Shown here piece after piece: positions 27,996 to 64,000 of a stretch of 64,000 bases of DNA; position 1 is the stretch's first letter, and every line of letters starts with the position of its first letter. The DNA is from Caenorhabditis elegans (Eukaryota; Nematoda; Chromadorea; Rhabditida; Rhabditidae). The stretch lies in NCBI RefSeq assembly GCF_000002985.6, contig NC_003281.10, positions 9,610,001 to 9,674,000 of the forward strand, given 5' to 3'. The notes beneath the pieces were generated by a model, which made no database searches, was not told the origin of the DNA, and saw nothing but the letters and a program-made list of their open reading frames with translations. A program made the position numbers and the translations under genes.

Positions 27996-28087
<92 letters not shown>
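27996..28087. repeat. (GA)46 microsatellite
   Basis: 92 bp of uninterrupted GA dinucleotides. Long frames through it on both strands are Arg-Glu or Ser-Leu translations of the repeat, not genes. Confidence 0.98.
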
Positions 28088-45959: not shown

Positions 45960-47006
45960 AAGGCTTTTTAAATAGAAAAACAGAAAGTTCACGCAAAACA
46001 TAGTTAAAATTTAAATTTTTTAAACAAGTTATCTTCTAAATGAAAGCGTTTTCAGGGCCGATAGACAAGGAGGCAAACGCTACACAATTTGAAATTTATG
46101 ATACCGTGAGTTTTTATCTGTATCGAAACCTCAGTGTGTCAGTTATTTGAAAACATTTGAGAGAAAGTTACAGATTACCCTGAAAGTTGAAAAACTCTTT
46201 CTTCTGAAATTTCAGATTCATGAAATAGGATAATTATAGTTTAAATCCCTCGACTCTAAATTTATCTATTAGTATATTCTTCCGTAATTTCTTGTTCTCA
46301 AACTAAAGATCAATTGTTCAGGAAACCCGTTCTGAATAGTTTTTCTTTGCTTTTCTTACACATTGCAACAATTGTTATCTACTCCTACTCCGAATGTTTG
46401 TTCTCCACTTGTCTATTGACCGTTAGTCTTTCTAACATCACATAGTTAAGATGACATAAAATGGCTTCATAAAAATGTTGTCTTTTTGTTTGTTTGGTGA
46501 TTTTTTCGCCTACGATTTATAGACTGATCTAATAGAATCCGTTTACATTCACAAATAAAAAACGAAACGGAAAAAAGTGATTCTTCATAAATACCAGATT
46601 TGAAATGAAATTTTATCAGAAAGCTGCTGCTAAAATAATCAAATATCATAGTAACACTTCAAAAAAATCATTTAACATTTTTTAAGTTACATTCAAAAAT
46701 GGCAATTACTCAATTTTCACCTATTCGGCTAGGTGGTACGATTTTTTGAATTTCGATTGTGTTTTATTTATCTGTATTCAATCAAACGTCGTAGTATATG
46801 ATTTGAAGCATTGATCAAGTTCAAATTTTTCAATAATTTGGCAGTGTGCCGAAAACTTTGACTGAAAATGTCAAAAAAAAACCTGAAACACTTCAGTTTC
46901 TATTTGGATATGTAGAATTTTTGACATTTTTTAAAAAGTATGTTTCAAAAAATCCCCATTCACGCTGCATTATCTCAAACAATTAGGATCATAGCTTCCA
47001 ATTTTT
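45960..47006. other. AT-rich intergenic DNA, nothing supported
   Basis: No exon-like frame, RNA gene or clear repeat was recognised here on either strand. Confidence 0.5.
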
Positions 47007-47385
47007 TCAGATAAGAATGATTTGAAATGGCTTGTCTTTTGAAGATGGAACAACAATTTTAGAATTTTCAAAGAATTCAATCAAAGTTTTGAAAACTTTT
47101 GAGCTTCGCTCGACTTCTAAACTTATATCATCTGAGTTTTCACCACTGTTTTTTTTCGATAATTGAATATTTTAACATAATTAAAACGGTTTTAAACAAT
47201 ATTTCATCTATTACAGTTTTTCTTGAAACGAAGTGATATCCAAACTGCCATGCCATACTGAGAAATGTTTGATTGTCCAAAATATTCAATTCGATGTTAT
47301 TGTTAGTAAACTTTCTCATCAAAAAGAGCAGTATTTTCTGGTAAATGTCACACAAAAAATCGACCTGAATATTTTCGTTTTTCAT
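47007..47385 (-). pseudogene. Possible hAT transposase relic with a frameshift
   Basis: The minus strand has an open frame from 47385 to a TGA at 47140, containing LDNQTFLSMAWQFGYHFVSR and KTVIDEIL. This has the spacing of the hAT segment Nx2F...Y.hPSRKTh. A second frame, opening in the same A8 run near 47150, continues with NSGENSDDISLEVERSSKVF and VFKTLIEFFENSKIVV until a TGA at 47007. One base of slippage in the A8 run separates the two frames. No catalytic domain is visible. An unrecognised intron is the alternative. Confidence 0.35.
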
Positions 47386-47656
47386 TACATGAATTGTTAT
47401 TTTAAATAAATTACGTGGTTTAGAAATGTTTGATTATCTTTAAAAGACAACCGATTTTTTTTTGTTACAATCAGAAAACTCCACAGCCATAACTTCTTTC
47501 TGATAACTTAAATTTGAGAGCTGTAAAAAATTGGAAATTTTCAGATTAATTCCCTATTTGTTCGAGATCTATTAAATTTTTCATTTTGTAGATATTTTAA
47601 GCGCTCCCTACGTATCTGTGAAAACATGTCATTTCGAAAATATAAAAATTTTGTAA

Positions 47657-47795
47657 CTAGTCGTCAATCGTAGAGGACATTTCACTCCAACCTTGACAAG
47701 AACACCTTCCTCCACATGGTCCCCTATCATCTTCACCAAAGTACGACTTATTAATGCCTTTTTGTCTAGACACAGCTGTCGCTTTCTCTGTGACC
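47657..47795 (-). other. Orphan terminal coding exon
   Basis: Acceptor TTCGGTAG (exon start 47795) followed by an open frame to TAG at 47657-47659. The peptide contains TAVSRQKGINKSYFGEDDRG and CGGRCSCQGWSEMSSTIDD. It looks like a real C-terminus, with phase 2 at the 5' junction. The frame is also open upstream to about 47930. No upstream exon was joined. A GTCTAGAC palindrome at 47764-47771 lies inside it. Confidence 0.45.
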
Positions 47796-48112
47796 CTACC
47801 GAAAAAAAAAACTATTTTAGTAGAATAAAAAGAAAAATAGTGGGATTTGTCTGATGCCCAGAAAACACGAGAAATCGTTGATGAAAAACCAAGCGCTGTC
47901 TGCTCCTGCTGTTTTTTTTTTTTTGAATGACATCAAACATCATGGCTCTAAAACAAATAAATGATCTGAACAAGAATTTATGAATCTTATGAAAAAGTAA
48001 ATTTTCAGCAATTTGCCGATTTGTCAGAATATTTAATTTTTGACAGATTGCCGATGATCAATTTACCGAAAATATTTTAAAGGGATTTTTAATAAAAAAA
48101 GTACTTGTAACC

Positions 48113-48392
48113 AGGGGTGCCGGACAATTGCAGTTCGGCAATCGAATTTTCGGCTATTGCCGAAAATTCACAAAACCGGCAATTGCCGAAATTATCGATT
48201 GGAAATTAGAATTTCCGGAAATATACATTTGATACTTTTTGTATGTTTAGGAGCCTTTAATCTATTATATTATAATGAACCATTTCAATTTCCGAAATAT
48301 AGTTAGTACGAAAAAATGCCGAAAATGTCCATCAATCGGCAATTCCAGCAATTCCAGCAGTTTTGGCAATTGCCGAAATTGCTGATACCCCT
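48113..48392. repeat. Repeat element built on CGGCAATTGCCG palindromes
   Basis: Ends CAGGGGT and ACCCCTG are inverted. The interior holds many TTCGGCAATTGCCGAA-type units (48140-48195, 48330-48385). A fragment of the same family is at 50993-51060. Confidence 0.75.
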
Positions 48393-48660
48393 GCATGCAA
48401 CTATGTGTTTTTGAATTTTTCCGCGTTTTTTTTTTGTTTTTAAATTTTTTCGCGTTTTCTTCAAATATTTTCATGGAATTCATTTACAGTTCTAGGAAAA
48501 TTTATATGATGCCTTTAGTTTTGCAGTTTAAAAAAGTGAAATTTCAAAAAAATATTGCACAACCACAATTTGTATAAAAATTTCCGAATAGTTAAATTTG
48601 CCAAAACCTGATAACGGCAATTTGCAAAAATTTCATTTGCCCCCTAGGACACACAGTTTT

Positions 48661-48839
48661 TTAATTAATCTCCCCAAAATAGGAGTATACTCCCTCCACA
48701 TGATTTTTAAATGGCATATTCGGGATTAGACATGTTTCATTTGGACACCAAATCGGATTATCTTGAATGGATCTGCTTATTTCAGGAAGTACGTCAAAGC
48801 TCTTTATGAATAGCGTTCTGTGGCCTGAATCTAAGATCA
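48661..48839 (-). other. Orphan exon-like frame
   Basis: After an ATGTTCAG acceptor (exon start 48839) an open frame runs to TAA at 48661. Peptide samples: GHRTLFIKSFDVLPEISRSI and WCPNETCLIPNMPFKNHVEG. Protein-like composition in otherwise AT-rich DNA. It does not join in phase with the exon at 47795. Possibly a fragment of a decayed gene or transposon. Confidence 0.35.
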
Positions 48840-49843
48840 CTGAACATTTTGAAAAGATTAGCATTTAATGGTGGAGTAGTGGGGATTTACTCTAAATACG
48901 CACATTCCAAAAGGTCCAAAAAGGCCGAAAAATATATAAAACACCTGAAAATTTTTGGGATTTCTAAAAAAGTGTTAGAACTCTTAGAAAAAATTAGTTT
49001 AGCAATCGAAAAAAACCGAGTTTTAGAATTTTTGCCAATCGCCAAACTACAATTATCGTTTTCAAAAATTATTTTGAAACAAAAAAACTCAAAAATAAGC
49101 AAAAAACTTATTTTTACTATATGTAGCAGGCTTTTTTGTAAAAAAAATAAATAATTTTCCTTCACAACTCAGAAAATTCTACAGAGATTTTATATTCTGA
49201 GTTTTGGAAATTTTAAAGACAATTATAAAGTAGCCGAATTTGTAAATTTTCGAAATTTTAGATTTTTCGGGTGCCTGAGGACCCCTATTTTATTAATCCA
49301 AGTGAAGAAAATCTCTATTTCACAGAATACCATAATATTTTTAGATTCCGATTGCAAATTTATATTTGACTAACTATAAATATATTTAAAATTTTTTGTA
49401 CATTCATAAATTTGTATAATTATTTTTTGTGTGCCCTGCTCCCCTCTATTATTATTTCTTTAAAAAACATGAGATACGTTGAATATTCGTCAACTCGAAA
49501 TGTCAAGTTTCAGCAATTATAGCCTTGAGTTGGACACTTGATGTTTCGACATCAAAGTACGGAATATTTTATAACTTTTTCTCTGTTTTGATGCGACGAG
49601 GAGTGCAGGTGAAAATGAAATATCAGACAAGAAGTGATGGAAAAATATTATTTTTGTTGATTAATTCAGAAGTGTCTTGAAGAAAACGTTTCACAATAAA
49701 TGCTACGAGAAAGTTTGAATTAAACATTTCAAAAGTTTAGGATTTTTTTAAAACAATCAGGCTACAGCATAGGCTTAGGCGGGAGATCCAGTAACAAAAA
49801 ATTATAAGAAATTGGTCCGAAATAAATTTGGACTTATCTCCCA

Positions 49844-50110
49844 TCACATATATATATATATTTTTGAATTTTTAGATTTTTTTGCGAGTTCTTCACACTG
49901 TTTTAAATCAAAAGTATTCCTATATTTTGGTGTTTTGAGAAAATCCGTAAGACCCCATATTTCTGGCCCATTAGAAAACCGATATTGTACTGTACTCGTA
50001 GTTAAATCTGTCGAAACACATATTTTTGAAAATACAGTTTTTTTCAAGTTCCCTTTTCCCCCACTTTCCCGACGGAGGCACTTTTGCAGCTCGTAAAACG
50101 AAAAAGCCAT
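49844..50110 (-). other. Possible first exon followed by dispersed repeat
   Basis: ATG at 50110 gives MAFSFYELQKCLRRESGGKG then NLKKT, with a weak donor ACT|GTATTT. The frame stays open to 49844, but from about 50035 down it enters a dispersed repeat (TACTGTACTCGTAGTTAAAT on the plus strand). Low support. Confidence 0.2.
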
Positions 50111-50143
50111 TTCAGAATTGAGCACAGCAGCGACACTAGACAC

Positions 50144-53100
50144 TCGGTTCCCGTCTAGACAGACTGATCATTCAAGAAAAACTGGAGAGCAATGTGTGCT
50201 CAGAGAGCAGTAGCAGAAGCGAGCAGGGTGCCCTTTGACGCCGTCCGTCCACCATCTGTTTACAAATGCAATCCGAACTCTAGACGTCGCTGATTCTGTG
50301 AACTTTGCTTAACAAAATGCCGAATTTTTGTGAATAACAGGAAAGATTATTTCATTGCTGGAAAACAAAATCACCCTCTGGCCCGGAAAACGTGTCTGAA
50401 AAATGTGCAAAATATTAAAGAAGGAGTATTGTCAATTGGAACATACTGAAAACTGTAGTTTATCTTTGAAATTTGAATTTCGCGGACAAATTATATTACA
50501 CGGGAATTCAAATTTAGTTTTTGTGTTTTGATTGTACACATGCTCATTGGAATCGCTTTCTAAATTTTTTGAATTTTTTTACTATATATACTTGGAGCAA
50601 CTGCCCATTTCGGTACTATCATCCAGTAGTATGAATTAATAGTGTAGAAAATAATTTGAATTATTTAAAAATGATATAAAAGGTTCTCAAATATTGTCTG
50701 AAAGTTTTTATTTTCGGAAAAAATGAATATGTTAAAATTATTTTGGTTTTTAAATCCTTTCAAAGTTTTAAACATACACATAATAAGTTATTTTCAGATA
50801 AATTACATTTTTTCAACACTTTTACCTTTCTTCAAAGCCCCATGGATCCCAAAGACTTTTAAGAGTTAGCATATATTTTGTGGCAGAATATTTAGTTTTT
50901 TGTAAGAAAATTACCTACGGAATGTTAAAATGTTTTACACCGAATCGTGTTAAGCTTAAAATTTTCAAATTTTCGAAATATAGTTAAGTTTTAAAATTGC
51001 CGAAATTTCCACCTATTGGCCATTTCGGCAATTTCAGCAACTTCCGAAATTGCCAAAAATTCCCCATTTTCAAACATTTCCGATTACATCTCACCTGATA
51101 GGAACAGATTAACTATTTAATATCCTGTAGATTATGCAAACGCCGACACAAAGATTAATTGCTTAAATTCCTCCGAGGCTTTGTATTTCCAAATTATACA
51201 GTAGTCCCCCGAAGATTAAATACATAATAATCATGGACAAGATTATAGTCGATCTTTTGATCTTCAACAGCTGTGTCTCATCTGTGTCTTTCTTAATTGT
51301 CTTCATTATTACGATCATCGGAACAGTCTGCACTTATCTCCGTCTCCTTCTCTCTCATTCTTCAGATGTCTTCCCGCCGTTCCTCTTCACCGTCTTCCTT
51401 GTGTTCTGAACCGATTTGAAATGAGACGAAGAACGAATAAATGAAAGGAAAGGAGGCGATTGTCTAGACACATTTTCTTCCCCTTCCGAACACATAGAAC
51501 AACCATTTCCATTTTCCATGACCAGCAAAACAGTGACAGGGCTCCAGATAATTTATGTATTTTGTATTCGTACAACGCCAAACCAGGAAGTCAATTTGTT
51601 CACATGCAAATCTAACAGAAATTCAAATATTGTTATCAGAAGTCCATTGGGTTCATACAGAAAAGTAGTTTTGAGGATTCTCATTCAAATTTCTAATGAT
51701 GTTAGAAGTTCGAGGTTCTTACGAGAATTTGCTCGAAATGTACAAACCTATTTGTTGAGCTGTGCCTGTCTTCCCAAAAAGTTTTGTATATAAGTTCCAC
51801 GAACAAAAAATTAATTTTAAAATTTTGGAAATATGCAAATGTTTCCAAGTATTTATTATTGAAAATTCCTTTTTCTCTTTTCGTTCTGAGCTTCGAAAAT
51901 TGCGGGAATTTTTCTCACTTAAAAAATTCTTCGAGTAATCCTATTATGTTTCCCTCGGAGTCAGACCCTTCTTGATGTTAAACTGAAACAAAAGCCCAAC
52001 TTGATTAAACTTATGCCATTTGAGTTGAACAAGCCAGTCTTTTGTAGGAAATGTAGCCAAGGAAATGATGCAGGTGGTTTTGCCTCGAGATAACCAAAAA
52101 ATCAAAGCTATCACACGTGGGTGCACGAACAATTGTCTGAGAAATTGTTATTTTCATATATATTAAACTTCATCTTTTGGTTTTGTTTGTACGGGGAGAT
52201 TGATTTTAGTGAGACGGATATTTACCATATTTATTCTTTTAGTATTGTACCCTATTGTTTAACTTTGACAGCCTATACCTCAGTTATCGTTTGTTCTTTT
52301 ATTGATACGTTTGAATATCAGGCGGGGCAATATTAATAGAAGAAATACGGCACTTACGGTACTTATCTAGTGCTATGATGTTTTGATTGAAAAATATTTA
52401 CATGGACTCCTAAGGGAAACAACTCATAAAAGTCTTATACCAAAGGTTACAGATTTAAAAGCGTGCCCTCTACCAGTCAGTTTGCAGAAAGACAGACGTC
52501 CACAATTCTTTTGAACTTCAAATTACTACTTCACTTTCAGTAAGCCCCCCGTCTGAGACTCCTTGGGGGAAACAAGAACTACGGTAGCCCAGTGAGTGGC
52601 GCAAATCGAAGCTCATTAGAAAACACGTTGCTTCTCGGTTCTCCCTTCATCTTTTTGTGCGTGTCTGCAGTACGTGCTGCTGTTGCTCAAAACGCCATTA
52701 GTCGAACTCTATGGACTTTGGCCCTTTTTCTCATTCTTCCGGTGGATCTGTTCCCCCCGTCGCAACATGAGAAATTGGAGAAAAGGATAGAATTAGATGT
52801 ATGTTTGTTGGTCACATTCTAGACACGAGCACTTTACACAATGGTCCTGAGACCTGCTAGACCTGAGTAGAAATGCAGAGAAAAATTTGAAGAGTCTAGT
52901 TTGTCTGAGAGTTCACACGAAAAGTCTTGGGAGAAAACTATTGGAAACTGTAAAATTATCTGGGAAAAATAATTTTTTTCAAAATTTTTAGTCAAAGTAT
53001 TGGATAATTGCAGAGAAATTCGGAAAAAATATTTCAAGTAGAATGTTAGAGAAAATAACATTTCGTCAAAAATACCAAACATCATAATTAAAAACTCAAT

Positions 53101-53682
53101 TAGAGGTTTTGGAATTTGCTTCTGCAAATTTGAAAAATCATAAAAAATTTATAGCTTCTAAAATGTTTTTTTGAATATTCATATTTGGTATTTCGATACT
53201 GTATTCTGCCATTTTTTAATGAATCTCCCACGAAAAATTTCTGATTATAATTTCCTATTGGAAATTTTCTGAAACACAGAAAACTGAAAAATAAAATAAT
53301 AATTTATTTGTTGAATGATCTATGGGGATCTATCGACCGCGAGCAGTCAAAATAAATTATTGAAATAATAAAAAATCGAATCAAAATCAACCGAGATAAG
53401 GAAAGGGATGGGATGATGATGAGAGGGCAAATAAAAAGAAGAAGACTATTCTAGCCTAAAATACACCGTGAATTTAAGAGATTTCCAATACCGAGACAAT
53501 GGGATTTTTTGAAGAAAGAAGAACGTTTGTGGGAAAGAAAAATACCGAATCGTTGCATAAGCCGTTAAAAAAGATGACTTGTTACCGAGATACCCTTCAG
53601 AATTCTCGCTAACAAGCCAAAATGACAGTGTGAATTTTGGGCGGGAAGGGAATATTGTACAAAACAGGAACAAAAAAGTATA
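50144..53682. other. Gene-free stretch with repeats and GTCTAGAC sites
   Basis: No gene supported. It includes a CGGCAATT-family fragment (50993-51060), a TTATATCTC-family inverted repeat (52232-52336), a GC-rich island at 52540-52770, and GTCTAGAC at 50153 and 51462. Confidence 0.5.
52232..52336. repeat. Inverted-repeat element, TTATATCTC family, copy C
   Basis: TTTTAGTATTGTACCCTATT and TTTGACAGCCTATACCTCAG on the left, GGGGCAATATTA at the right end. Confidence 0.55.
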
Positions 53683-56600
53683 TTACAGTGAGCTTGAAGA
53701 TTCAAATCCCTTATTCACTTGTCCTCCACCCATCATGGATGTCGTGTAGTCACAAAGTGAAATTGAATGTTCAGCGTTAACCATAGGGACCATAGGGGCT
53801 GGGCAGTTCTCGTCGTGTCCTTCACTTGTCTGAAAATTGCAGAATTGAGTTATAGTCTTCTATTTTTTGATATTATCTATGTAAAAAGCAGGAAAATTAT
53901 TTAAAACCGCTTGTACATATAGTGCACAAGTGTCTAAATATCATAGTAATAGTTTTGAAAATTTGGCAATTTACCGAAACTTTTGAAATGTTTCATTATG
54001 GTATTTGGACGTGGAATTAAACAAAGTCCCCACTGTCAATTTTCCATTTTAAAAGTACTCTTCTGTAACATCATCAATCGCATTTTGGGCACAATCTAGC
54101 CAGAGCCACAAATTAGCGGAAGTAATGCTTCTCACTCTTTCTCTCGCTTCTTGTGCTCACGTAGCGTCTAGCTCACTTTTTTATATGTCAGCAATATCAA
54201 AACACATTTTAAATGAGCGAATCCAAGAGATCAAATAATCAAGAATCATTGACTCATAATAATAATAATAATACAGCTACTAATAACATTATTTTTCACA
54301 TTTCAAAAAAAAAATTTATATACGACACAGATAAGCATGTGGAAACGAACAGCGCGGTGTTTGGAGAAGCCGTGATTTTGCAATTTTGAATACTAGAAAT
54401 TGCAGTAAATAAAAACTAACCAGTCGACGTTTCCGCCGTGTCAATGAAGATATATTGCGGAAGCATTGTGGACATCGTGCATATAATGGACCGCTTTTGT
54501 AGTCTTTAATCTGAAAAAAAATGTTCAGTGAGCTTCAAATAACTTTGTTTCAATGGTCCCTTCTTTAAACCCATTCCAACATCTGGACCTCTAGACACAT
54601 CAATCTCGTATCTCGTAGACGAGTAGGCGGAAAGAGCACAGAGATGTGATCATGATGTGTTAAGAAGAAAAAGAAGAAGAAGAAGTTGGAATGGGGAACA
54701 AATTCGATTTTTGGCTAGGAGAAGAGGAGCAGCGCCAAGTGCTCAAAGAGGAGGAAGGACCAAAGTTCCTTTGAAGCGACGGCGCATCACGAGGCATGCT
54801 TCATCTTTTTTGCAAGAAATTCAATAAATTTTTTGTTGCAAAGCTTGGTGAAGGATGAATAAGTAAATATATTAGTTCTACAACAACACCTTCCCTTAAT
54901 CCTCAGAAGCTATGAGAGAATGTGTTGATAATATAATGTTTTAATGATCGGCAGCTGGTGCGAGACGGACTGTAGACTTTGATTGTGTGATTCGTTTTAT
55001 AAACAAACACCCTTGAGACGCACACACACACACCCTTACGCACAATATAGTCTAGTCTGCATCTGGACTGTCTGATCGGTATTGCTTTGATTCTATTGAT
55101 ATCTACACCCTCCGGAACTTACCGAATCACGTATCATTTCGTAGCAGCAATGTTTGCATAAGGAGGAATGATCCGAGCAATCGTCACCCATCCATCGGCC
55201 TTTTCTTTTCATACAAAAATGACATCTTTCAGAGTTTGGAACATCATCATCGACGTATTGATATTCAGTGTGCGACTGGAAAAAATTTTATATTGAAAAC
55301 AATTTTAAAGAGTCAAAATTATTCTTTTTTGTTGCTTTTTCAGGACCAAACCGATTAGATATGTAATTTTATCAAAATTCGATTTTTTTCAGCCAATAGA
55401 ATTTCCATCCGTTTTGTGGCAGTTTAATAATTTTGTTCATAGATATGTGTAGTCTTTGTCACATCTCAAAAAGTAAAAGAGATTGCTCATTGGTTCCCCC
55501 CGCCAATAACTTTTTCCCTTCCATCATTATATGTTTGAGTATGTGAAAAAGTCCTCATCATCTCTCATCTCATCCTGTCTGTTTCTCTATCTGTCTAGAC
55601 ACAACAAGAATAAGAAGAACCGCAACATTCTCAACATTTGAGCGACGCGCCCCTGCTGTTTGGAGGCAGCAGCAGTGCGACAACTAGAGAGTATGCAATG
55701 TTCCAGGAGATTCAGAAGCAGTTGGACGGTGAGATGAACACGAATATACAGATAGTATGAGTGAAAGAAAAAGAGACACATACACATACTGACGTCGTTT
55801 TTGGTCTTCTAAGAGGCGCCGCGACTATATTCGTATTGTGCTGCCAGGAGAAGAATGTTGCAAGTTTAGGAGTCTAGACTAGACACATAAAACAAAAAAA
55901 ACCAGGGAAGCGACTCGGAGCACACACAAAACTTGATCTTTAGCTCGTGGGGCTTCTTGGAGAAACTGATAAGAGGGGAAACGAGTTGCGATAGTTTCGT
56001 GGCAAATAGTGTCTGAAAGCGCCTAGTTTATCGTTTATGACGTTGAGTGCACATTGGTGTTTTAGAGTGATTGTTTGTCTGTGCTCAATTCTTCTAGACA
56101 ATTGATTTACTTACGCTTTAAATAACAAAAAGTGCGCTGATCGGGACCGGAAGTGAATTTTCATGGGAATTTCCTAATAGGAAGCACAGTTTTTTGTATA
56201 AATTATTATATACATACATGCAAATGTATGTATTTAAATTTTAAAATTCCAATTAGCAATTTGATTTTGCTGGACTTTGCCTAACTATAGTCAGCTATAG
56301 CTGAAAAAAGATGCAAATCCCTGTTTTTTGTAACAATCCAAAAATTCCGAACACGAACTATTCCGAGTTGTTGTAGTATTTGTATGATGTCTCTATCTCT
56401 GTGTCTCTTATTTACGTCACTCTCTCATCCCAGACAGACATGTGACTCAAAACCATGTCTAGGCCAAAGTGCTGCTGCTGAGACTGTCTTCCCTGTCTGC
56501 AGAGATTACTGTTTGATGTCATCTACAGTAGTCACGGAACTTTTTTTTTCAAAAAAAGTGTGCGTTGAAGCCAGAAGACAGATTTACGTCAGAGGTTTTG

Positions 56601-57592
56601 AGCTTTAATTAGACATCTTTTCATGTTTGCTTGATGAATATGAAATAGAGATAGAGAAAAAGAGTGGTATTGATTCAAGACATTTTCAGTCTAGACTTCG
56701 ACTTTCTTGAAGTTTGAGGAAATCCAGTGATTTAAATGTTCAAAAAAAAGATTAGAAGAATTAATTTCTTAGCAGTTACAACAGTTTTTCATGAAAAATT
56801 GATCATCTACTCTTTGCCTGCCTCTTTCTGTCACTTTCTCCCGTACACCGGCGCCGAGAGCGCTTACAAACACATGTCACCACACAGGAAGGAGAGAAGA
56901 AACAAAAGAAAATGAGAGAGATAAATAGAGAAAGAAACAGAAAAAATAAATATAATAGCAGCGTCTCCTAGTACGATTCACTACAAAAAGATATAAAAAG
57001 GAACAACAAATATTTTGTCAGTTAAAAATAGTGTGATTAGACAAAATACGACTTAACGCATTTTCTCTATTAGCATTGCATCCTACTACTTTATTTTGGA
57101 ATATTATTTCTCGGTTCTTCTTGAAGATATTGATTAATAATCAACTAAAAAACTCAAAAAAATAAAATAATAAAGTTTTTGTCAGTTGGCAACGTTTGTA
57201 TAGGACAAAAGACAGCTGATATATAAGCTGTCAAAGCTTTAAAAGTGAAATTTAAAAAATTCTCAATTATAACTAGTATAACAAATTGCAATGACATTTT
57301 CCTATGTAAGATTTGAATTGACATATACTATATTTAAATATTTTTTTTTGAATAAAAAACTCACCATTCTCTCTTTAATAATTCTGATAATAGCATCCCT
57401 GCTCTCTTCAGTCATTGTCCAATTGCATTCAGTTACTTCAACGGTTCCAATTACATCGACGGTTTCTTCTGTTTTTGTACAATTTGTTGATGTAGTGGCT
57501 CGTGATGTAGATTGCTCAGTTGAAGACATTTCGTGGTAATCGAACCGATGACGGAGTCGATTTACTTTATTGCTCAGCCAACCCTGAAGCAT
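53683..57592 (-). CDS. Cys-rich putative zinc-binding protein
   Basis: Four phase-0 exons: 57365-57592, 55123-55275, 54421-54510, 53683-53829; 205 aa from ATG 57592 or 184 aa from ATG 57529. An acceptor TTTTTTTGCAG near 57640 fits the 5' end. The N-terminus is Ser/Thr-rich (MSSTEQSTSRATTSTNCTKT). The core is CHFCMKRKGRWMGDDCSDHS, LCKHCCYEMIRDS and LYARCPQCFRN, spacing C-x2-C-x11-C-x6-C-x2-C-x20-C-x2-C, enough for two zinc sites in a cross-brace-like arrangement. A basic run RRKRRL follows, which may be a nuclear signal. I do not recognise the family. The 2.1-kb first intron and flanks are rich in GTCTAGAC sites, suggesting regulated expression. Confidence 0.82.
57073..57240. repeat. Inverted-repeat element, TTATATCTC family, copy D
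   Basis: Left end AGCATTGCATCCTACTACTT, right part GATATATAAGCTGTCAAAGC, opposed as in the other copies. Confidence 0.55.
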
Positions 57593-58845
57593 CACTAAGA
57601 ACGTTTTCGAGTCGACAGTTTATTTGTTGGCAACTGCAAAAAAATATGGATTTAAATAGGAATTATGAGATTTCAGAAAAAAACATTATGAATAAGATGA
57701 GAAGCCGTCGTGGAAAAATCTGTTTATAAAATCAAAATGAGCATCATCATGTGAGCTATGATATAGCTATAATAGTATGAGTAGTGAAAAAGTGCCAGAC
57801 ATGATATGTATTAATAGTAAATCAAACAAATAAACAGGTGGCAACAAACGTTTTCAATTTCAATGTGATGTTTGGTGATAAAGTTGTAAAGTGGAGGTGA
57901 TAAGAGAGTACATTAAAAGTGGCGGGAATTACCCTTTTTCAAAAAATAAATATATTATGCAAAATAAAAATGAGACGCCTCACAAAAATGGACACGCAAA
58001 ACGAGAAACGGGAGGAGGCGAGGAGACGACGAGGTATGGGAGGGCATGCAGTGTGTGGGGAGGAGGGCGGCGCCAAAACGAGGGGTCGGAACTCGATAGG
58101 GTCGGACACTGCAGCCGTCTAGACTCTGTCTGCGTCTCAATGTTCTCCTACTTCTCCACCGTCTCGTCGCTAAAGATTAATGTGTGTAGCCACCAACAAG
58201 CGGCCGGCGGGCGGGCATAGAAGGGGCATGGGACGGAATTGAGAGGCCCCGCTTGCTTTTTTTGGTGAGGCTGATCACAGTCTACACACACAGACAGGAC
58301 ACGACGATGAAGAAGACGTCGGTGTCTGCCTCCGTTGAGAGAATTTTTTGAGAATAAACATAGACGTCTGGAGGAGGGGCGAAATGCTGATAAACAAGTG
58401 GTCGTTGGTGTCAGAACTGTCTGGCGGATGAGAGAGCTCTGAAGACAGGAGACGTTGAGACAAAGATAGACTGAAAGTTCCTGTCTTTTGTTTTTAAAGT
58501 TTTTAAGAGTTTTTTAGAGATCTAGAAGACAGAAAATAGAAATATTGAACAGAGTCAGCTGATGATAGTAGACAGTGAATCACTGAACGTACTGTACAAA
58601 AGTGCTATGTGCCTTGTGTGAGGGAGAATGTGTAAATACGCAGGAAGAGAAGAAAAAGTGAAAGTGAGACACTTGTACTGTTCTAGAAAATAAACTGGAA
58701 TTTATTTACCAAAACTGTGGATTCATGAATTTTCTGCAAATTTTGCAGAGTGCAAACTACCGTATTTGCCTTATGAGACTTGCACCACCACATGTTCTGA
58801 AAAATTCACCTTTCATTGGGCGGCGAACTTCTTCAGGAAATTTAC

Positions 58846-59060
58846 AAAACTGCCCATTTCGATATATTAACTCAACTTTTTAAAATACAAACACATTTAG
58901 AAAAATAGAAAAATATTTGTTTCGAGAATGATTTCAAAAACCGCTTGAAAGTTATCATTTGTCAAAAAAATTAGAACAGTGGTTATTTGGCAAATTTGAG
59001 ACAGTTTTTGAGATTATTTTTTCGAGTTTTTCTAATAAAAATCGTTATTTTTGAATAAAT
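58846..59060. repeat. TIR element copy 1 (truncated)
   Basis: Begins AAACTGCCCATTTCGATATA like the complete copies at 59962 and 61613 and shares the internal AGAAAAATATTTG and TTTTTGAGATTATTTT stretches. No right terminal repeat is visible. Confidence 0.65.
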
Positions 59061-59961
59061 CATTTTTATAAATATATTTCTTCATTTATTTTAATTTTAA
59101 AAGGAAATGTTTCCGCTCAAATTATTGATAGCAGTTCTAGCGGTAAGCTTAACCATACTTGCAAGCTTTCAAATTTTCCTGATATTCGATATATAGAATA
59201 CATATCTGTTTACTTGTACAAAAACAACACATGATGATCATATTCATATTTGAATACATCAAATATCAAAAAAAAAAGCTGTTTATCGGTATGAAACGTG
59301 ATTTACAACTGTTCAGTACCGTATCCTCGATCATTTTCGCGTGGGAGGATAAAGGAATCACATATTCTCTCATGATTATGCAAATTTTATTTCCAGAATG
59401 TTTTTTTAAACATATTTCTATCAGTAAAAGTAGTTGGAGATATATAAAATTATTTTTCTACAAATGAATGAGCTCAATCAAGGAAAAACTCAAAATTTAT
59501 TGGTCAATTGTTAGATTTTTTGCTCACAATTCAGAAATTCATAGCTCAAAAATAAAAAGTAATCTGCGAGAATTAAATTTCCAGATGTTCCTTAAAGTCT
59601 GAGTACAAAATCTACAATTTCAGGCATTAAAATATCAGAGCTCTGTGAAAAATTGTCGCATTTTCTTCTGTCCAAAACACAAAATCTATTCAGAGAACTG
59701 GTGTATCAGAAGACGGCTTCATTAAGTATCAAAAAACCGCATAATCTATGCGGATCAGTCTACAAGCACAAAGTACAAAATGTCTAGACATGTATCGAAG
59801 CGGGGAATTATATTTATAATGTGTATCAGTAGACTACTGATATCCGTTCGATGTTCAAGAAACTTACAACGTCATTCAAGTACATCCGATAAGGAGAATA
59901 ATGTTATAGGGGTTGGAAATACTCAGAGGGATAAGCTTGAAAAATTGAGTCAAAAACGTAA

Positions 59962-60279
59962 AAATCTACAAAGCTGCCCATTCCGATATGATAACTCAAC
60001 TTTTTAAAGTAAAAATAAATAATTTTAGAAAAACATTTGAATTTAGACCTTTTAGTTTTATTTAAAAAAATCGAACGAAATTTTAAAAACTGATTGAAAG
60101 TAGCCAAATCTTAACAGTTGTTCTTCGGCAAGTTTCAGGCAATTTTTGAGATTATTTTCAAGTCAACCAATAAATACAATTGTTATTTCCGAACTAATTA
60201 AATATTTTTCTAAACCTGCATATTTATTTTTATTATAAACGAAGAGTTATCATATCGAAATGTACAGTTTTGTAGATTT
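59962..60279. repeat. TIR element copy 2 (complete, MITE-like)
   Basis: Inverted ends of about 36 bp: 59962-59997 (AAATCTACAAAGCTGCCCAT ...) and 60243-60279 (... CAGTTTTGTAGATTT). About 320 bp, non-coding. Confidence 0.85.
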
Positions 60280-60334
60280 GGATAGGTCGTTCGCCGCCAT
60301 TCCCTATATTGCAACTCAAGCATCTTCCAAAAAA

Positions 60335-60600
60335 ATTTTCTACCAAATGTATCAGCTTGGCATAAAAACTACACACTTGGTTTAGAAGTTGACAACTCCT
60401 CGACAAAACTTTTTCAATTTTCATCCAACTCTTGCCAATTTCTTACCCAAGTTTAGAATCCCAACGATTGGCAGGAGTTGCATCAAAATTAGGCTGAACT
60501 TGAACTTGAAAAAGGATCGAGTTTTCAATCAGTCTTGCCAAAGTTCAGACAGAGTTTTCCAATTTCTACACTAAATTTATAGATTCTGAGCCAAGCTTGG
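60335..60600. repeat. Degenerate tandem CTTGCCAA / AACTTTTGCC-type repeat
   Basis: Irregular repeats of a 20-30 nt unit around TTGCCAA...AGTTGACA. Similar sequence on the other strand lies at about 32800-33000. Confidence 0.5.
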
Positions 60601-61612
60601 GCAAAAAGTTACCTTCACTTTTTTGTAGCAGAACAACCCCCACCTGATATCACAGTAGCTTACTGAGTCCTCATGTTTACATCTCGAATTGACAGTGTAG
60701 TTGAAGAAGAAGACCAAACTTTCAAAAGTAGATCCCTCTGGGTTAAGCTTACTGGAAATGCTGCTCGATGGTCCGTGTACTTTTGTCTTGGAAAGCTTTG
60801 TAGAAGGAAGCGGAACAACATAAAACAACAAAGACGCAGCAGCAGCAGAAGAAGAAAAAGAAAAATAAACGGGATTAAAACTAGAAGAAGAACAAACCCG
60901 TCTAGACTGCATCAGACGTGGTCTCCTTTGCAGACAAGATGAGATGATCACACACACACATAGCTGAAAACAACTGCTTCTTCATTTTTCCCTCTCTCTT
61001 ATTCCATGCCAGTTGAGTGATTTCCAGAGAGATGTCTAGACAGTCTGAACACCACACTTTTAGCTCCTCTAAACAAGTTGCAGAGAGTGGCAAAAGACGG
61101 CTCGGGCAAGTGTATCTAGTACGAATAAATTGTCTGGTTCTGTTTTGTGTACGTCAACATGAAAGTTTTGGATCGAAAATAGCTGTACACTACAAAACAC
61201 GACGGGGGGGGGGTGCTTCTCCTATGTTCTAGATCTCTACAGTAGACAATCAAAACAATATCAAATTTCCGTTTTCCAGACAGTGTTTTTGTCTCGACAG
61301 CAGACATGTAGTATCAGCAAAGTTGAAAATTATGTCTAGGGGATTATTTTCCGCTCTTGGAAATTGTTCTTTATAGTCACAAATAGTTACAGTCTCGTGC
61401 ATTTTCAACAACGTGAGAAATGGAACAAAATGGTTCCTGGTGAACCAATTCTATTTTCAAGTAACTCATTTCAAATTTAATAAACAATTTTCAAAAAATA
61501 ACGATATCGGGATAAGACCCACCGATAGCACGCACAATACAACTATTATAATTTTAACCCAAAATTCAAGAACTTCAACTTTTGGAATCTTTTCTGAGTA
61601 ATGATCTCTGTG

Positions 61613-61931
61613 GAGCCCATTACGATATGATAACTATTGTTTTTAAACAAAAATGTACGTAGAAATATAGAAAAATATTTGATTAGTTTAAACCAATATT
61701 GGAAAAATAATATCTTTGTACTGAAAATTTTGAGAATAATCTTAAAACCTACCTGAAACTTGCCAAAGAACTACTGTTAAAATGGTTCTAGCAAGGAATT
61801 TTTTTCGATGTTTCAGAAAAATGAAATGTTATTTTCAAACTAATCAAATATTTTTCTATACGTTTGCATATAGTTTAATTTTAAAAACTTGTTATCATAT
61901 TAGAATGGGCAGTTTTGTTAATTTGCCGAGG
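61613..61931. repeat. TIR element copy 3 (MITE-like)
   Basis: Left end GAGCCCATTACGATATGATA, right end TATCATATTAGAATGGGCAG. Same length and interior as the copy at 59962. Confidence 0.8.
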
Positions 61932-62650
61932 AGATTTGCAGCCCATGTCTATTCCAAGGTAATCTCACATCAAGTGCAAATTTTTTTTAGTAAACATTTT
62001 TGGAAAGTACTTAACCACAAAAACCAAACAATGAATAATCGAAATAATCATTTCCAGACAGTGTATTTCCGGTTATTCTGCAGTTTTTAAATACGAATAT
62101 CATTCTCTCCTACACAGCTCACGTCATTTGACAGTCTGTGTAAAGTCTGCGTTTCTCGAAAACTGTGCCAAATGCACTTTTTGGCAACAGATATCAAGTT
62201 CCGGACATCTACATCATGTGTTCAATGAGACAAAAAACAGTGTGGTTTGTAGAATTTTGTTACTATTAGTAAAGTTGTTTTTGATATCTCGAAAAAAATT
62301 CTTTAAAATTTGAAACAAAACTTTCAGGAAAGAAATTCGAGTCGGTTAACAAAACATGATAATAATGCCTGATATCTCCTGGCTTTCCGGTTTGAAAAAT
62401 CCCCGGAAATTGAAAAAAAAAGAAGAGACTAATATTTGATCAGTTCAAATAATTCTCACAAATTGATCTTGCGGTTTTTTCGGTTTAGAATTCATCTGCC
62501 TTTTACTTAAAGATGGAGTAGCAATAATGGGAATGTCGCTTTAAAATATCCATAAAAACTTTAATTTTAGATATAAGAGAACTCACAAAAAAAACAGGTT
62601 AATAAAAATTTTCGACATTTAAAAAGCTATTCAATGAGATATTGCCTTAT

Positions 62651-62752
62651 TTGAACCAATCAGCGAATAGCCGCGCCCATATTCAAACCAATTAGCATTT
62701 TCCACACTCCAATTGGTTGAAAAGTGAGCGAGCGAGTCGCTGATTGGTCGCT
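62651..62752. repeat. Nested CCAAT-box inverted repeat
   Basis: Outer arms AACCAATCAGCGA and TCGCTGATTGGT, inner arms TTCAAACCAATT and AATTGGTTGAA: two hairpins, one inside the other. Confidence 0.8.
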
Positions 62753-64000
62753 GATTAGTCTACATTTTGGAGGGAATTAAAACAAGTAATTGAACCAGAA
62801 TTGAAAAAAACAGGTTTTCCGAGAATTAACTCTCTGTTTTCTTTTGTAATATTTTTTGAATTTCTGATTATTTTGGATATTTTGAAGCAAAAATACAAAT
62901 ATATTTTCAAACATACAAAAGTGTTTTTTGACTGATCATTTGAATACAAAAACATCACTTAAGACATATTACTCAACTGCCAATTTCTACCAAAAGGTGT
63001 GTCTTCAGACTTTCAGATCTTTAATTACATGGGTATGAGAATCTATTTTCAGAAATGTACTTTCAGAAACTTGATCGGTTTCTTGTGACAGACATGTTGT
63101 AATTACATATGGTTCTGTGGCTCAAAAAGTGCAGAAGATCATCTGTTTCTTGATGTCTGCTATGTTTTATAAACGCAGCTTTCGGAAACTGAGAATTTAG
63201 CCAAAAAATGTGAATGATCAAAATAATTATTTTTGTGGGTAGAGCAACTATAACAATTTTGACATGCCAGTTTAAAGACGCACGTTGATTTTTTGAGTGA
63301 GTCTCGCCGCGATCTCAGTCATAGTGATCGCTAAAGGTTACAAAATTTACAGATTTGTTAATTTGATGTAGAAGAAGAAAGTTTCTGTAATTTAAAATTC
63401 TGAAGTGCACTTGGAAAGTAAAGATTTATAGTACCATGTTTACGCGAACAGAATAAAATTTTAGGTTTTCCAAAGTTGACAGCTTCTCTGTAGTACAAAA
63501 ATTGGTAGATGCGGAAAACAAAGTGGCATTTATTTATATTTTCCTTATCATATTCCCAAAACTTTTTCAAATGATGTCATACAAAATATTAAACCTATTT
63601 CTGTCTACCTAAGTAAAAACCACTGCTTAACACAGAAAATTGTTTTTCATCGTCCGTTGTTTTGATGATCGACTGGGGGTCTGCAATTCAAACGTCATTT
63701 ACTTCAGTTATCCTGAAAAAAGGGGGCACTTGTCAGTGCCACCCCATGTCTTAAATGTTTTCAGCCCTGCAGAAGTAATAGTATTTATAATTAAGTGTGT
63801 TGACAAACAAAATTGTGTGTCCTGATCGTTTGATTCTACACACCTCTAGACATTTTCATCGGAACCTCCGACCAATTCTCATAGACCGAAATGTAAAGGG
63901 AGGGTGTCTAGACTCTTTTGGGTAACCAAATAAGATTGCAGCTGATAACCCGATTGTCTCGCCACTTATCAGCTACAACGATCTCAGTTTGTTTTTTTGG

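Follow-up and report, generated by a model that had tools for sequence, protein, structure and literature searches.

A dense cluster of the SMAD palindrome around a predicted cysteine-rich gene of Caenorhabditis elegans: a candidate SMAD-response domain

In the present study, we analysed a stretch of 64,000 nucleotides of Caenorhabditis elegans DNA (chromosome III, contig C3:9,610,001-9,674,000, called the window, with positions counted from its first letter), which carries a dense cluster of the SMAD palindrome GTCTAGAC around a predicted cysteine-rich (Cys-rich) gene. All 11 exact copies in the window lie within 47764-63913, and there are 0 in 1-47763; a sequence-only reading of the same DNA had claimed eleven copies in about 16 kb after 47.7 kb free of them, and the recount gave the same. 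The cluster is real and statistically extreme. We consider it probable, at a rough probability of 0.6, that the interval 47.7-64 kb is a homotypic SMAD-response domain controlling the Cys-rich gene. The sites, their rarity and arrangement, the excess of half-sites around them and the position of the predicted gene at their centre are the observations from which this reading is drawn. The exact copies, given without strand, are the following:

47764..47771, no strand, GTCTAGAC site 1, on the 3' side of the Cys-rich gene
50153..50160, no strand, GTCTAGAC site 2, with another AGAC directly after it (GTCTAGACAGAC)
51462..51469, no strand, GTCTAGAC site 3
55593..55600, no strand, GTCTAGAC site 4, in predicted intron 1 of the Cys-rich gene
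55872..55879, no strand, GTCTAGAC site 5, in intron 1, with a second CTAGAC overlapping it (GTCTAGACTAGAC)
56689..56696, no strand, GTCTAGAC site 6, in intron 1
58117..58124, no strand, GTCTAGAC site 7, upstream of the Cys-rich gene, ~0.5 kb from its predicted 5' end
59782..59789, no strand, GTCTAGAC site 8, upstream of the Cys-rich gene
60900..60907, no strand, GTCTAGAC site 9, upstream of the Cys-rich gene
61034..61041, no strand, GTCTAGAC site 10, with GTCT directly after it (GTCTAGACAGTCT)
63906..63913, no strand, GTCTAGAC site 11, upstream of the Cys-rich gene

The five additional TCTAGAC matches that had been claimed were also found (starts at 50279, 52818, 54590, 56093 and 63845). None of the 11 palindromes starts inside a predicted exon of the Cys-rich gene (0/11).

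The number of copies is far above that expected by chance. In 100 dinucleotide shuffles of the window, the mean was 0.35 copies and the largest count 3. For further statistics a core of ~47001-64700 (17.7 kb) was used, which extends past the end of the window (in-window part 47001-64000), and 300 shuffles of it gave a mean of 0.1 and a maximum of 1 against the 11 real copies. The GC content across the region is 30-39%, which agrees with the 35% assumed earlier. Within 264 kb including the window, only 2 more copies were present, one 76 kb left of the group and the other 20 kb right of it. Exact and one-mismatch copies stood at 11:12 in the core and at 2:52 in the 246-kb flanks; thus, the excess concerns the exact word and is no general drift of composition.

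In the whole searched genome (100,286,401 bases in 7 contigs), the palindrome is not over-represented, with 668 copies (~1/150 kb) as compared with 771 for the reversed word. We placed 502 of the 668 copies by means of eight flank patterns and the first part of contig C1; contig C6 accounts for only 50 of those placed. Among the placed copies, the window's 11 in 16.2 kb formed the largest group, followed by four groups of 3, so that no other 16.2-kb stretch held more than 3. When 668 sites were placed at random 5,000 times, the largest group was 2 in 155 cases, 3 in 4,286, 4 in 543 and 5 in 16 (the span was 16,150 bases for the random placements and 16,200 for the observed groups).

Some looser groupings were seen elsewhere. 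On contig C2, nine placed copies lie in 135 kb (5,228,094-5,362,908), where ~0.9 would be expected at 668 per 100 Mb, and a 10-kb piece of this grouping holds 2 copies together with 27 AGACA and 6 CAGACA. Three placed copies lie in 11 kb of contig C1 (11,684,441-11,695,485), and CAGACA occurs there 8 times in 8 kb (1.0/kb), as compared with ~0.36/kb in the flanks of the present locus; this trio is perhaps another SMAD-rich locus. A similar trio of placed copies exists on contig C5, but with only 2 CAGACA in 8 kb.

In addition to the palindromes, the half-sites were considerably enriched. With the palindromes masked, the words of the core (47000-64700) were ranked against the 246-kb flanks by uncorrected Poisson P. 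AGAC was first among 136 4-mers (149 seen, 89.9 expected), AGACA first among 512 5-mers (79 seen, 29.4 expected, P 3e-14), with CAGAC second (44 against 16.6), and CAGACA first among 1,989 6-mers (30 against 6.3, P 9e-12). The adjoining GTCT/AGAC half-sites pointed out before were also confirmed, with an excess of ~1.7-fold for GTCT/AGAC, ~2.7-fold for CAGAC and ~4.8-fold for CAGACA over the flanks. The top 7-mer was CAGACAG, and the top 8-mer was the repeat word ATTGCCGA. When the palindromes were included, the core (47001-64700) held 91 AGACA and 30 CAGACA, as compared with 29.8 and 6.3 expected from the flanks; likewise, its best 16.2-kb span exceeded the best non-overlapping span within the 264 kb for AGACA (84 vs 43), CAGACA (29 vs 13) and AGAC (167 vs 117).

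Among the arrangements of the half-sites, one is strongly preferred. Among 63 two-half-site arrangements in the core (inverted, everted or direct, with gaps of 0-20), the inverted one with gap 0 (GTCT|AGAC) occurred 11 times, while each remaining inverted or everted gap occurred at most 2 times and each direct gap at most 5 times. The base following AGAC on the 3' side in the palindromes was A in 12/22 cases, T in 7, G in 3 and C in 0. A SMAD MH1 target would be expected to show just such a zero-gap inverted GTCT|AGAC together with a half-site excess, as far as sequence can tell. The three densest 500-bp half-site stretches of the window are the following:

58101..58600, no strand, densest, 19 GTCT/AGAC, upstream, candidate proximal response element
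60901..61400, no strand, second densest, 15 GTCT/AGAC, upstream
56351..56850, no strand, third densest, 13 GTCT/AGAC, in intron 1

The gene at the centre of the cluster was modelled from splice signals read by eye, with introns all in phase 0. Its predicted exons are as follows:

57365..57633, minus strand, predicted exon 1, following a TTTTTTTGCAG acceptor (trans-splice or 5' untranslated region), ATG at 57592 or 57529
55123..55275, minus strand, predicted exon 2, Cys-rich (CHFC..C..CKHCC)
54421..54510, minus strand, predicted exon 3, with CPQC
53683..53829, minus strand, predicted exon 4, including the stop codon

The predicted protein has 205 residues from the ATG at 57592 (184 from that at 57529) and 12 Cys, with pairs like CHFC, CKHCC and CPQC, and is possibly zinc-binding. 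Since the TTTTTTTGCAG acceptor precedes exon 1, we infer either trans-splicing of the gene or an additional 5' exon. A draft of the spliced product, with a short intron read-through, matched no Pfam family at an expectation value (E) of up to 1. Among solved structures, the piece of exons 2-4 had no significant relative (the best was survivin, E 0.43), and a genome search with exons 2-3 (E up to 1) recovered only these exons and no paralogue. The gene mab-31 was considered and rejected as the Cys-rich gene, since chromosome I carries it as Y54E10A.16 (PMC2921377). The midpoint of the cluster (55.8 kb) almost coincides with that of the Cys-rich gene (55.7 kb; gene 53.7-57.6 kb), and the cluster reaches ~6 kb to each side. 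The sequence-only reading had offered either this gene or the next one to the right as the target; the centring speaks for the former rather than the latter.

We propose that, upon signalling by a TGF-beta-type ligand, many of these sites would be occupied simultaneously by SMAD complexes, either those of the DBL-1 pathway (SMA-2/3/4) or those of the DAF-7 pathway (DAF-3 with partners). The occupied sites, which lie in intron 1, upstream of the Cys-rich gene and on its 3' side, would then set the transcription of this gene, and the densest element (58.1-58.6 kb) would act from immediately upstream of its 5' end. SMAD binding, the Cys-rich gene as the target and the sign of its regulation are what we infer in this proposal.

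The SMAD palindrome is known mainly from in vitro selection, structural work and reporter constructs. GTCTAGAC is described as the palindrome obtained in Smad3/Smad4 oligonucleotide screens, with GTCT/CAGAC as the element of the MH1 domain (PMC5727232); here the identical 8-mer of the MH1 crystal-structure site is found in 11 native copies over 16 kb of one locus, with extra CAGAC half-sites. The locus resembles homotypic transcription factor clusters, such as clustered SMAD elements at TGF-beta target genes, in which a single gene is likewise surrounded by many copies of one motif, both in its intron and upstream of it. CAGAC, enriched here, is also the complement of GTCTG, the optimum of DAF-3 in the dauer pathway. 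This optimal site has only 5 bp, and a DAF-3 site is reported within 2 kb upstream of >80% of genes (PMC524168); therefore, only density singles out the present locus. In the same organism, the study of DBL-1/SMA-3 and SMA-9 target loci employs the same 4-bp GTCT element and speaks of degenerate, low-affinity SMAD sites (PMC11785376); at the present locus, by contrast, the optimal palindrome is abundant.

Several observations weigh against this proposal. In human Smad chromatin immunoprecipitation data, clustered CAGAC is reported in only 1%, 4% and 6% of the Smad1, Smad3 and Smad4 regions, respectively; CAGAC as such stays at baseline for Smad1 and rises no more than 2- to 3-fold in Smad3/Smad4 peaks, and bare AGAC is not enriched in Smad peaks (1.17 vs 1.04 per 200 bp) (PMC5727232). 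Because CAGAC clusters are rare and AGAC is flat in vertebrate peaks, dense AGAC clusters are atypical of SMAD targets. In human Smad peaks it is the 5-bp sites of GC type that cluster (PMC5727232), whereas the present cluster is mainly of the AGAC type and extends across a whole gene. BMP-type R-Smads are said to prefer GC-rich elements, and the degenerate, low-affinity character ascribed to C. elegans SMAD sites is a further point against (PMC11785376). In the core, the GC-type elements GGCGC (12 vs 8.9) and GGCCG (4 vs 6.7) were not clearly raised over the numbers expected from the flanks. Furthermore, 500-bp clumping over the window ranked AGAC only 18/136 among tetramers; an exceptional compact enhancer was rejected on this ground, and the signal is regional. 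The half-site background comprises 246 kb from the same neighbourhood, most of it genic; within the window, the mostly non-coding DNA at 27-40 kb showed no such excess (CAGACA 0.38/kb vs 1.71 in the core, AGACA 2.46/kb vs 5.24). Finally, there is a small probability that another dense group exists among the 166 unplaced copies of the 668. Overall, the SMAD part of the sequence-only reading gained from the lack of a comparable group among the placed copies, from the top-ranked half-sites, from the favoured zero-gap inversion and from the exclusion of a repeat family described below, and was not helped by the GC-type elements, which are not clearly enriched, nor by the clumping of AGAC at 500 bp, which is not exceptional.

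The BMP-type GC element GGCGCC occurred 3 times in the core (55815, 56850 and 58069), where the flanks would predict 0.8, and the rest of the window has 4 copies. The copy at 58069 sits 42 bases ahead of the palindrome at 58117.

An alternative that we regard as unlikely but deserving attention is that the homotypic cluster is true but serves another protein dimerising on TGTCTAGACA, such as an uncharacterised zinc finger or a nuclear receptor. In worms, many transcription factors lack a known binding site, and the preference for AGACA, which is both the commonest extension of the palindrome and the top 5-mer, would suit such a protein, as would the departure of dense AGAC clusters from vertebrate SMAD peaks. 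However, the second 5-mer is CAGAC, the classical SMAD element, which the palindrome itself does not contain, and GTCTAGAC is identical to the palindrome selected in vitro with SMAD proteins (PMC5727232). A p53-like orientation of AGACA was also tried and rejected, with 0 copies of AGACATGTCT and 0 of GACATGTC in the window. The type in question, RRRCATGYYY, is the consensus of the p53-family response element.

It is much less probable that the sites form a structural or chromosome-organising motif group, like the motifs of meiotic pairing centres, rather than a gene-regulatory one. The strongest concentration among the placed copies, spread across intron, upstream and downstream DNA with no exceptional compact enhancer, would agree with such a role. 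However, pairing centres are situated close to the ends of chromosomes and rely on 12-bp motifs with a different sequence, whereas this locus is interior (9.66 of 13.78 Mb of the contig), and the separate CAGACA excess and the centring on one gene suit a transcription factor cluster better.

The least probable explanation, that of a neutral excess left by a diverged repeat or produced by local mutational bias, could draw on the diverged repeats present at 58.8-62 kb and 48.1-51.1 kb, but the 30+30 bases around the 11 palindromes are unrelated (mean identity 26%, best 40%), the segments 55500-56150 and 60700-61250, with 4 of the 11 sites, are single-copy in the genome (each matched only itself at an E cut-off of 0.001), and the exact to one-mismatch ratio given above is unlike a composition bias. 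Because the flanks are unrelated and these two segments are single-copy, the sites belong to no repeat family, and a repeat-family origin was rejected; this also speaks against the possibility of a single family raised by the sequence-only reading.

As for the repeats themselves, 58838-62000 contains three diverged direct copies, together with inverted copies, of a repeat with GCCCATT..GATATGATAAC, spaced about 1.1-1.6 kb apart, and 48148-51053 contains several ATTGCCGAAAT/ATTTCGGCAAT units in both orientations, to which the top 8-mer ATTGCCGA belongs. Tandem repeats were rejected as an explanation (0/12 tandem-repeat rows within 47-64 kb), and so were a tRNA or known RNA, as there was no tRNA and no Rfam match at gathering thresholds.

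The neighbourhood of the Cys-rich gene was also surveyed. The Pfam family search found a protein kinase (PK_Tyr_Ser-Thr) and a tyrosine phosphatase to its left, a BED-finger exon at 25.5-25.9 kb and a tubulin match at 18.2-18.5 kb. To the right, from ~66.9 kb, minus-strand exons resemble a UDP-glucuronosyltransferase by eye, with no family search made. The clone of gei-13/F58A4.11 presumably also carries tbg-1 and hlh-11. The BED-finger exon fits gei-13/F58A4.11, which is described as a BED-finger gene (PMC4844114). Further to the left of the cluster, a perfect run of 46 GA dinucleotides occupies 27996-28087, inside a long mostly non-coding stretch.

No title or abstract beginning among the open-licence papers listed by the literature searches, in one case 15 of 2,066 hits, concerns this cluster. 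By its sequence, the locus would be of a known kind, a homotypic cluster of binding sites, and for SMAD proteins it would represent a native example of unusual purity; this putative assignment is the best interpretation at hand. A bolder view, which we hold only tentatively and think rather unlikely, is that of a TGF-beta hub, in which the densest optimal-SMAD-site domain of the genome would drive a Cys-rich, zinc-binding protein that is a main direct output of DBL-1 or DAF-7 signalling, as feedback or effector. SMAD sites are usually deemed too short and weak for the prediction of targets from sequence (PMC11785376). At this locus, sequence alone predicts a SMAD target, with the optimal palindrome concentrated beyond any other place mapped. 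It may thus offer a clean native test of how the number and arrangement of SMAD sites set the response, and it points to a candidate direct target gene with no recognised domain.

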